A program made the position numbers and the translations under genes. Positions 43,390 to 47,321 of a stretch of DNA of 64,000 nt are shown one piece after another. How positions within the stretch are numbered: position 1 is the stretch's first letter; each line of letters begins with the position of its first letter. Source of the DNA: Tieghemiomyces parasiticus (lineage: Eukaryota; Kickxellomycota; Dimargaritomycetes; Dimargaritales; Dimargaritaceae); contig JANBPT010000140.1 in the NCBI GenBank assembly GCA_027575765.1, forward strand, positions 1-64,000, in the 5' to 3' direction. The notes below the pieces were generated by a model. The model saw nothing but the letters and a program-made list of their open reading frames with translations. It was not told the DNA's origin and made no database searches.

Positions 43390-44608
43390 CTATTCAGTGC
43401 CGCCGCTCTTGAGAAGACTGAGGAAAGTGTCCTTCGACATTTGTTTGACTGCGGGGCCACGTCGCCAATTAAAAAGGATGCAAGAGAAAGTCAAGCGTAA
43501 AGCGTAGAGTCACGGTTAGAGAGGTATACGGTGCCACCAGCATCCTCACGTTGCCCTTAGAGCTCAAGGTGCAGTGAAAGTACGGCGCACGGCATGAAAA
43601 AGACTTACCTTTGTTGTCGGTCTCGTCCGGCGCCGAGCCACTCAGATCGAGCTCCTTCTGTTGGGTAGCGATCGCGTTGAAGAGCTTGACCACTGTTAAG
43701 GGGAATGGGAGATGGTATCACAGTGAAGATGATCCAATAATTAGATGGTGATGGGGTGCGGATTACACGGCAGAAACCACACTTGATCTGGGTTGGTCCA
43801 GCATCTTAAGTACAGCCATAGACACCAGCTCTATCGAGCCTCGGCTACCCAATGTCAGGTCGGTAGGGGCTAAACTTACCGCCGCGCGTGGCAACCTTCC
43901 GTAGGCTCTTCTCGTAGGTAGCGTTGCTAAAATCCGGAATGATGCGGTCCCGGGAGGCTAACCGTTTACGTTCCATGGCCAGGGCCTTGCGGGCCGCCAC
44001 CTCCTTGCTATCTGCCTTGATTTTCCGCTCCACTAGCTTGTTACGGGCTAGAATGGGAACCTGAAAGAGGGCGGTGGGTGAGGATGGGCAAATGTAGACG
44101 TGGTGGTTGGAACGGGTGCGCATCAAATGGTAAGCAGGGGTATTCCTCGGGCCATTGGACGGCTTGAGGCTACAATACTGCCATTGTGGCTTACTTTTTC
44201 ATCACTAGGAGCCAGGTCGGCGCCCAGAATACTGGACATGGCATCGGCAAACGCTGCTGGGTCCATGTGCTTGGGCTTCTTCTCTGTAAATATTGTAAGC
44301 GGGTTCAGGCATGGGAGAAGGTGGTAGCGAGCATAGAAATGGTCAGTGGCTACTTTCTAGACGGCTAGAGTTGGTACTCAAGTACGAAAAGAAGCGGACA
44401 ATCGCCCACTGCTCAGCGTTCAACCGACCGTAGCTGCGTGTCGACCCTGACTGCAAGAGGGGGCGGGTCTTAACTTACTCGGCCGCTTCTTGACAAGCAT
44501 CAGGTCGTCCTCTGAGTCGGATTCTGAATGGAGCGAGCCAACCTCGCGAGGGCTCTCGGGTAAGGCCTCGGGCTCGGCATGTTTCTTATGGGCGCTGCGG
44601 GGTGGCAT
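43390..44608 (-). CDS. RRP15: RRP15-like ribosome biogenesis protein
   Basis: Nucleolar factor needed for pre-60S rRNA processing. Five exons: complement(join(43390..43448,43609..43692,43880..44060,44195..44283,44479..44608)), 180 aa. All introns start with GTAAG, end in CAG and keep frame. The N-terminus is charged (MPPRSAHKKHAEPEAL) with an acidic Ser patch (SESDSEDD). The family core follows: MDPAAFADAMSSILGADL, then LARNKLVERKI, SRDRIIPDFSNATYEKSLRKVATRGVVKLFNAIATQQKELD, which matches the RRP15 signature '...E+.L++IATRGVVQLFNAV..QQK'. The final exon supplies SKDTFLSLLKSG, like the conserved C-terminal 'SK.dFl..L+'. At 180 aa it is shorter than yeast or human proteins. Divergent from the BRCA1-like gene, starts 611 bp apart. 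Confidence 0.92.
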
Positions 44609-45219
44609 AGTGCGATACGGTGGAAAGCCAGAGCAGGCGGGGGCGACACAAATTAAGAAGAGGGGTGGGTATAAAAGGAATGGAATGTGCAATTGGGGGA
44701 ACAATGAGGACATGCCATCGTGACCCCCTTCATGGGCCTGCTTTGGGAGCGTTGTGCCTGGCCTTGCTAACCTCCCCCCTCCTGGGCCTTTGTGAAACGA
44801 TCGTAGGGTTAAACATAGGGGGAAAAAAAGAAAAAGAGAACCGGGGTGAGCCTGTTCAGGCGCCTAGAACACAACACCAAAATATCACGTGATAAATGAT
44901 GGAGTCGCCTTACTGTCCCTGCCAGACATTCCAACTGAAGGTGGGAGGTAATCAATTGATGATGGGCGAGGCAAGGCGAATTCCGAAGCTGCCGCAGTAT
45001 GCCACCAAGCTCAGAAGTCGCCTTACACTGACCGATGGGAACAAGTTGTCAACAGGTGTCCGCATTTACCTGTGTGTTACGGCGCCGTTACTCTCCAAAC
45101 CCTCGTCACATCTGGGCTCATGCCTTACCCCCCTCCTCCACCCATAGGCTAGCCGAAAAATTCAAGCGCATCCGTATAACGGTCCCCAGCCCGTGACATC
45201 GGTTTTCGTTTCTACTGGC
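44609..45219. promoter_or_regulatory. Divergent promoter region RRP15/BRCA1-like
   Basis: 611 bp between two divergent start codons. TATAAAA on the plus strand (about 44669-44675) and CT-rich sequence before the BRCA1-like ATG are visible; neither is assigned with confidence. Confidence 0.4.
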
Positions 45220-47321
45220 ATGCCCAGAACCAAGTCAACAGGCCTACGGCGACGCCTGCGTTCTGCTGAACCGACGTCGCCTCTGCCAGCTTCGGCGGCG
45301 TCGGCCGACACGTTCCGTCACCAGAGCCACCTCGCGACGGACTCTACTTCACCAGCCGGTACCAGCCCTACGCAGGCCACCCCACCCCCGTCCACCCCGA
45401 CGACGTCGACCACGTCCAGCGAGAAATTACCTGACACCGTCGCCGGCTTATTGCTACGTCTGCGCTCTGAGGTGACCTGCGCCATTTGGTAAGTTGGGTA
45501 GGTCGATAGCCACGACTGCCTTCATTTTTATTTCAGCTGTACGCTCTAGAAGTGGCGTAATGGCTTGCTTTTCTCGGCACCTTATCGATTCACCCACAAT
45601 CCCCCCCTAAGTACTAAAACCCACTGAATTCCCTTTTTGACAGCTTAAGTCAGCTCGCGACCCCCTACGCCACCCACTGCAACCATATTTTCTGTAAGGA
45701 CTGTATCTTTCAATCGCTCAACCAGAAGAATACCAAGTGCCCGCTATGCAACACGCGCATTACGAAGCGAGCGCTGGCACCACAGGAAAGCGTGGCCAAG
45801 GTTTCCCAGGCCGTGGCTGCCGTAATTGCAAGCTACGAAGCCGAAACCGGCGTACCGATCGACCGGTTTAAGAATGATTTGTCTCGGGAAGCCCGGGACG
45901 CCGGAGATAATGCTGACACCGGGCCCGCCTTATTGCGCCTATCACCGCCGACCAATTTATCACAACAATACCCACACCCGATTAAGGATGTGGTGACTGA
46001 CGCGACGGGCAAGCCTCAGACCGGAGTGTGCCCCGGTGACCTCAGGACGAAGCGACGGCGAGCGACTCCCGCTAGGGATTGTACAGCACCGCCTATGTCG
46101 GCAGCCTCTGCCGGTCCCTCCAAACGAAAACAAACCAATCCCGCGGTCCCGCTAAACGTGAAGGCTAGTATGCTTCGATTCGTTGCCAGTAATCTTTCAC
46201 CAAAAGATACGGTAGGTCTCTTAGTTACTAGTTTTTAAGCTGCTTTATGACCAGTATTCCCCAATCGCCCCTATCGGCTGGTATCCAACATGTGAACTAA
46301 GTCGACCAATTCCTCACTTCGCAACCCCGCCCAGAGCGCTCTTGCACAACTCGCCACACAAATGCGTGGCTCCATTACTCACAATGTGGACGACTCCGTG
46401 ACCCATTTGATTGTAGCGGCCAGTAAGTAGTTAAATAGGCAATGCCTATTACGGGTGGGTGCCCCATCTAGGATCTCGGGGCCTGTCATAGAGTCTTATA
46501 TTAAGAAGTACTCTAATGATATCCCTACCCCTTACACCCTGTGCCCACCTCTCTACCCTTCCCCCCATTTATTCATGATTCCTGTAGCCAATGACCGTCT
46601 AATTGAAAAGCGGACCAAAAAATACCTGTTGGCTTTGCTTCACGGCTGCTGGATCGTCACAACCGACTGGGTCTCGTCCGCACTGGCTTCTCCAAATACG
46701 CCCGAGACCGACTTCGAAGTACAGGGTGATGCCAAGTCAGGGCCTATCCGGGGACCCACGCTGGCGCGCGAAGCCGCTACCCAGCGGATAACAAACCAGG
46801 CGACCGGAATGGACGGTCGCCTCTTCACCGGCATCCGATTCTATTTGGATGTCCGGCCCGGTGATAATGTGTCGCCGTCGCCTGACGATATCCGCGAATG
46901 TATTTCAGCGGCGGGCGGCGTGCTGCTAACCGCCACGGAGCTCATGCAGTTGCTGGCCGACACCGAATGGGTGGCCTCCGGACCGCCGGATGACCAGTCT
47001 TCGATTGCTGAGCCCCCGGCCAAATCCCTGAGGACTGTCAGCCGTGTTACAACGTCTGCAGTGCGGCCTGATATCATCTTTCTGACCAACCCCGGCGGCA
47101 GAAGTGCCTTGTCAGCCCAAAGGCGGCGGTGGGAGAAACACCTCCGGAGCCAGTGTCCAAAACCGGAAGTGAGATCCTCCAGCGCGGCGTCGTGGACCAA
47201 TGCAGCCGTACAGCTGCGTTTAGCTGCTGACGGGGTGCGGTCGACGACGGCTGCACTGGCGGTGACCACGCTGCCCTACACGTGGGCGCTAGATGCCATC
47301 GCAGCCTACCGGATTATTTAG
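45220..47321 (+). CDS. BRCA1-like protein: RING finger plus tandem BRCT
   Basis: Probable nuclear E3 ubiquitin ligase of the BRCA1/BARD1 type, acting in homologous-recombination repair. Four exons: join(45220..45488,45644..46211,46335..46422,46588..47321), 552 aa; all donors are GTAAGT/GTAGGT, acceptors CAG or TAG. The C3HC4 RING is split by intron 1 exactly after Cys-Ala-Ile: C87, C90, C102, H104, C107, C110, C122, C125. The words HCNHIFCKDC and LNQKNTKCPLC followed by ITKRAL mirror BRCA1 more than BARD1. A charged, low-complexity linker follows. BRCT1 (about 265-365) contains DSVTHLIVAA and HGCWIVTTDWV. BRCT2 (about 395-552) contains LFTGIRFYL, AAGGVLL and the closing WALDAIAAY. There are no ankyrin repeats, which argues against BARD1. 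Much shorter than human BRCA1, nearer in plan to plant proteins. Confidence 0.88.

Follow-up and report, generated by a model that had tools for sequence, protein, structure and literature searches.

Does a fungus of the Kickxellomycota possess a BRCA1 gene and, if so, which protein could be its partner? The question is raised by a RING–BRCT gene of Tieghemiomyces parasiticus (Kickxellomycota, Dimargaritales), located in the first 64,000 nucleotides of contig JANBPT010000140.1, the whole stretch of DNA analyzed here and referred to as the window. BRCA1 and BARD1 have been studied mainly in animals and plants. Here, we find that the window gene is intact in two alleles, encodes a BRCA1-type RING and first BRCT domain (BRCT1), and shares an intron with human BRCA1, in a genome that also contains a second RING–BRCT gene (on contig C990), BRCA2 and RAD51. 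We suggest, with a probability of about 0.84, that the window gene is a compact fungal BRCA1 whose RING pairs with the BARD1-like RING of the C990 protein as a ligase favoring BRCA2/RAD51-dependent recombination.

The RING and BRCT domains of the window protein

The window protein has its RING at the N terminus and its BRCT domains at the C terminus. Spliced translation and Pfam confirm the RING–BRCT protein of 552 residues and four exons proposed in a preliminary description of this DNA, and the single four-exon frame kept in both alleles argues for one gene rather than two. Among the solved structures in the PDB, the human BRCA1 RING is the best match to the window RING (56.5 bits, E-value 2.3e-14), 13 bits ahead of the next family at 43.3 bits, with the TRIM5 and RING2 RINGs at ∼43 bits; i.e., the protein carries an N-terminal C3HC4 RING that is closest to BRCA1 among RINGs. 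Smith-Waterman Z-scores of this RING are 26.6 for human BRCA1 versus 10.5 for BARD1. In the same database, the BRCT region matches 18 BRCA1 sequences first at 42.0 to 44.6 bits, followed by seven of BARD1 at 28.1 to 30.1 bits, microcephalin at 17.1 bits and MDC1 at 12.7 bits, so that BRCA1 leads BARD1 by 14 bits and microcephalin by 27. The C-terminal tandem BRCT is closest to BRCA1, as judged for BRCT1 by this ranking and for the second domain (BRCT2) by the profile PF16589 only, and BRCT1 has Z-scores of 23.2 against human BRCA1 versus 16.3 against BARD1. A grouping with RAD18- or RNF8-type ligases, named in the preliminary description as an outcome that would contradict it, is not seen in the PDB rankings of either domain.

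Alignment to human BRCA1 also shows conservation of individual positions. The I68-T69-K70-R71 loop, which we take to contact the nucleosome acidic patch, is identical in the window RING, and I26, which presumably faces the ubiquitin-conjugating enzyme (E2), is retained. This alignment and a low-confidence model place helices on both sides of the RING, at roughly residues 70 to 85 and 138 to 158, aligned with those by which BRCA1 pairs with BARD1. An AlphaFold model of the window protein built with five mammalian BRCA1 rows had a mean predicted local distance difference test score of 32 and was set aside. BRCT1 keeps the S..R-T-x-K positions of the phosphoserine pocket (human S1655, R1699 and K1702); we take these three residues and G1656, in human numbering, to be the residues of the BRCA1 pocket.

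Intron positions and a candidate BARD1-like partner

Intron 1 of the window gene (45488/45644) divides the codon for the second RING Cys residue after its second base (TG^C). For human BRCA1, the variants c.80+1G>A and c.81-1G>C listed in Table 2 of PMC7281099 place a junction at c.80/81 in codon 27; for human BARD1, Table 2 of PMC6877745 places one at c.158/159 in codon 53. Intron 1 of the window gene interrupts the same Cys codon in the same phase as the two human introns in these tables. For the codon placement in BARD1, we assumed that the human RING string used starts at residue 26. The C990 gene, which encodes a 573-residue protein and has an allele on C1142 that was spliced by alignment, has the same intron in the second Cys codon and, in addition, an intron (AA^A) that interrupts the codon following the fifth zinc ligand; the latter matches BRCA1 c.134/135 and BARD1 c.215/216 as far as these sources give them. 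This second in-RING intron is absent from the window gene.

The frequency of such interruptions can be gauged from the 85 PF13923 RING matches in the genome: 68 span the model nearly whole, from positions 1–2 to 39–40 (hand count), and 17 are partial, including those of the window gene and its allele. Among the 15 others, five loci were opened; four are uninterrupted, and the fifth, judged by eye to be a CHY-type RING, has its interruption at another position. Split RINGs that score below threshold are invisible to this search, as was the C990 RING; because introns split it, the C990 gene surfaced via the BRCT_2 search rather than the RING search. By our estimate, the odds that one intron in a ∼45-codon RING would agree in codon and phase by chance are roughly 1 in 70, and those for two introns are far lower. 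In the literature on intron positions, none of the matches listed deals with BRCA1 or BARD1. Because two independent domains and an intron position are held in common with human BRCA1, we regard the BRCA1 identity of the window gene as secure at the level of sequence, and the BRCA1-like assignment in the preliminary description stands: the RING and the BRCT region each rank BRCA1 first, and the intron is shared.

The C990 protein has a tandem BRCT at its C terminus, in which the second domain matches PF16589 (E-value 1.6e-7, residues 475 to 572). Its RING scores 29.1 bits against PF14835 (E-value 9.2e-7), below the cut-off of 35. In LG+G4 trees of eight sequences (both alleles of the window and C990 genes, plus two sequences each of BRCA1 and BARD1), which are quartets with long branches and not a family phylogeny, the RING grouping of the window gene with BRCA1 and of C990 with BARD1 is best by 6.85 log-likelihood units, with an approximately unbiased (AU) test value of 0.965 versus 0.036 and 0.035 for the alternatives. 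The concatenated domains prefer the same grouping (85% ultrafast bootstrap, AU 0.881). We conclude that the C990 protein is probably a BARD1-like partner, a less sure call than that of BRCA1.

Other candidates for BARD1 were rejected. A genome search with a BARD1-type RING model gave three places below threshold, which by eye are a Bre1-like RING in two alleles and a different RING. When the RING, ankyrin and BRCT matches were compared by eye contig by contig, only C474 and C500 emerged, with frames of 1714 and 1720 residues in which ankyrin repeats precede a C-terminal RING; these were dismissed on domain order and lack of a BRCT match.

Proposed function and competing explanations

The genome also encodes proteins of the proposed repair pathway. 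BRCA2 OB1 is found on C147 and C810 (E-values 2.7e-29 and 9.9e-29), and RAD51 on C258 (E-value 2.6e-131) together with further family members. The sole histone H2A match in the genome, on C236, begins MAGGKSGGKASEASTSRTRSARAGLQ and ends LLPKKSKKDLAASQEM; no lysine lies between GGK and AGLQ, and when human H2A is aligned from RAGLQ backwards, T and R take the places of its residues 13 and 15. The protein has C-terminal lysines, and an SQ motif is located close to its end. From this inventory, we infer pairing, ligase activity, a substrate, phosphopeptide binding and a role in repair. The window RING would pair with the C990 RING through the helices on either side, and the RING pair would be a ubiquitin ligase that, with an E2, modifies nucleosomal H2A, with the conserved ITKR loop anchoring it on the acidic patch. 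The tandem BRCTs would hold the complex at phosphorylated partners on damaged DNA, and the complex would favor homologous recombination (HR) carried out by BRCA2 and RAD51.

In animals, the ankyrin and BRCT modules of BARD1 are described as reading H2A ubiquitylated at K15 (H2AK15ub) and unmethylated H4K20 (H4K20me0) (PMC10639053). Because the C990 protein as modeled lacks ankyrin repeats and an H2AK13/15ub mark is probably unusable, phosphopeptide binding is the likeliest route of recruitment. We tentatively extend this to a scenario, possible but not favored, in which a stripped ligase of 552 and 573 residues, lacking the ankyrin reader of H4K20me0 and in a genome whose one detected H2A is without K13 and K15, acts in recombination without the H2AK15ub/H4K20me0 code; ligase and BRCT functions would then be older than, or separable from, this code.

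Several observations weigh against the proposed pair. In the window RING, human L51 is replaced by S and K65 by N; in BRCT1, G1656 is replaced by N; and BRCT2 is weak against human BRCT2, such that pairwise comparison does not decide. The C990 RING is closer in the PDB to Polycomb PCGF5 (47.2 bits) and RING2 (34.1 bits) than to BARD1 (29.4 bits), its first BRCT is unseen by Pfam, with the stretch 397–459 matching BRCA1 BRCT1 (34.8 bits) and being BRCA1-like rather than BARD1-like, and no ankyrin family is found by Pfam in the 573 residues at E-values ≤1, unlike in animal BARD1. The alternatives to the RING quartet are excluded by AU but not by the Kishino-Hasegawa or Shimodaira-Hasegawa tests (0.054), and those to the concatenated quartet are not excluded by AU (0.125 and 0.127). 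The BRCT-only quartet, for which the first part of C990 BRCT1 was left overhanging by automatic alignment, lacks resolution (differences of 0.01 log-likelihood units; alternatives at AU 0.45 and 0.557), and its best tree joins the two mammalian families with 37%. Moreover, of the partner and pathway genes named in the preliminary description, a BARD1-like candidate and RAD51 were found, as was BRCA2, while PALB2 was not: the genome search with its WD40 domain, which had no working control, gave no match. In a competing scenario, the window protein is BRCA1, but C990 is another RING–BRCT ligase or a second copy on the BRCA1 side, and the window RING forms a homodimer or has an undetected partner; we regard this as unlikely, though as the most serious competitor to the BRCA1/BARD1-like pair.

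Two further scenarios concern the origin of the window gene itself. T. parasiticus parasitizes other fungi, and searches with its own sequences returned only the gene itself, as could be expected if the mycoparasite had acquired BRCA1 from another lineage rather than kept it since the opisthokont ancestor. However, the sequence is highly divergent, ancient intron positions are found at two separate loci, both haplotypes carry the gene, and BRCA1 homologues have been published in Mucoromycota (PMC11061109). Transfer is therefore very unlikely, although a donor among other early-diverging fungi is conceivable. Least probable of all is a generic RING ligase of the TRIM, RAD18 or RNF8 type that was fused to BRCTs and resembles BRCA1 by convergence. 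The scores of TRIM5 and RING2 would fit such an origin, but BRCA1 leads in both domains, and the intron coincides with that of BRCA1 and BARD1, a position at which none of the five opened RING loci is interrupted.

Gene model, alleles and relation to known systems

The features of the window gene are compiled in Table 1. All three introns (155, 123 and 165 nucleotides) are GT..AG, and the reading frame comprises 552 residues and a stop codon. The protein is already in public data as IWQ60_003331, a hypothetical protein of T. parasiticus with 550 residues, in which a later acceptor after intron 1 drops Leu-Ser of the first RING loop (compared with window 45636–45660). With the first acceptor, 11 residues separate the second zinc ligand from the third, as in human BRCA1; the deposited form has nine. 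Because of this spacing, we prefer the 552-residue model, which on the sequence is the better one; the acceptor chosen in IWQ60_003331 is apparently incorrect.

Table 1. Coordinates of the BRCA1-like gene and its parts in the window
Feature	Position	Strand	Details
BRCA1-like gene	45220..47321	+	exons 45220-45488, 45644-46211, 46335-46422, 46588-47321; 552 residues; spliced translation
Intron 1	45489..45643	+	splits second RING cysteine codon TG^C
Intron 2	46212..46334	+	GTAGGT..CAG, kept in C802 allele
Intron 3	46423..46587	+	GTAAGT..TAG, kept in C802 allele
RING finger, residues 87-125	45478..45749	+	interrupted by intron 1; Pfam PF13923, E-value 1.3e-10
BRCT domain 1, residues about 267-350	46173..46712	+	over exons 2-4; PF00533, E-value 3.3e-11
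BRCT domain 2, residues about 387-552	46821..47318	+	long internal insertion; ends on terminal W..LD..A.Y helix; PF16589, alignment

The region is present as two haplotypes. Along 9.9 kb, the C802 allele shows 93.6% identity; it has no coding gaps and identical splice sites, and both alleles are intact. Over the whole coding region, they differ by 28 synonymous and 30 nonsynonymous changes, with a ratio of nonsynonymous to synonymous rates (dN/dS; Nei-Gojobori) of 0.37. The RING with its helices (residues 67 to 166) has four synonymous and no nonsynonymous changes (dN/dS 0), BRCT1 has a dN/dS of 0.23 and BRCT2 (residues 367 to 552) of 0.24, and the N terminus and linker reach 1.95 and 1.29 with few changes each. 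Although the numbers by part are small, the pattern is that three domains are kept and the rest of the protein drifts.

Upstream, on the opposite strand (window 43845–44609), a 117-residue frame at 43845–44198 has an Rrp15p domain (PF07890, E-value 9.4e-9); the two genes lie head to head ∼0.6 kb apart if the putative first exon is the MPPRSAHKKH frame starting at ∼44609. Other BRCT genes recognized by eye from the frames are REV1, FCP1-like, RFC1, TopBP1/Rad4-like, Chs5-like and an FHA+BRCT protein. The latter protein, on C1257 (allele C69), has an FHA domain near the N terminus (PF00498, E-value 2.9e-8) and a BRCT at the C-terminal end by Pfam, which we take to be the layout of MDC1/Mdb1, and a further BRCT_2 in a separate downstream frame; BRCT_2 matches are also found on C488/C452 (628 to 630 residues).

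Like animal BRCA1, the window protein combines an N-terminal C3HC4 RING with flanking helices, an identical ITKR loop and a C-terminal BRCT pair, and its first in-RING intron is at the same codon and phase as in the human gene. It differs from human BRCA1, which has 1863 residues, in its length, a linker of about 90 to 100 residues, a long BRCT2 insertion, the changes at the L51, K65 and G1656 positions and the missing second in-RING intron (c.134/135). The suggestion in the preliminary description that this minimal form is ancestral is unsupported, and the short length may be secondary. The C990 protein resembles human BARD1 in its N-terminal RING, C-terminal tandem BRCT, both in-RING introns (codon and phase) and RING quartet grouping, and differs from it by the lack of ankyrin repeats, a more BRCA1-like BRCT1 and a zf-RING_6 score below the curated cut-off.

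In a set of 5.8 billion proteins, the whole window protein (7996 scored candidates) and its RING region (80 candidates) each matched only itself; a composite query containing the human BRCA1 RING gave 344 proteins (366 candidates), of which the 120 listed are all mammalian, with no fungi among them. According to a 2021 paper, fungal BRCA1 was missing from the databases (PMC8483008). In a 2024 survey of 183 fungal proteomes (Barua et al. 2024, PMC11061109), BRCA1 (FANCS) is one of the Fanconi components, and its homologues are reported to be expressed in Lobosporangium transversale, Mucor lusitanicus and Rhizopus delemar. The window gene belongs to the same family in non-Dikarya fungi with a partly retained Fanconi/HR pathway; the main text of that survey has no Kickxell-, Dimargari- or Zoopagomycot- words and no BARD1, and the sections of it that were consulted contain no partner gene or intron comparison. 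Among the matches listed in the open-licence literature, there is no report of a fungal BARD1 partner. Because BRCA1 has already been published for early-diverging fungi (PMC11061109), the novelty is moderate; it lies in the BRCA1/BARD1-like pair, in the evidence from introns and in an ankyrin-less form that occurs together with a single detected H2A devoid of K13 and K15.

A compact pair beside BRCA2 and RAD51 would be a natural minimal system in which a repair enzyme can be tested in a fungus. The pair would date both genes and two introns to before the split of fungi and animals. Finally, if recruitment works without ankyrin repeats and without K13 and K15 of H2A, the core ligase function would be separated from the animal chromatin code.
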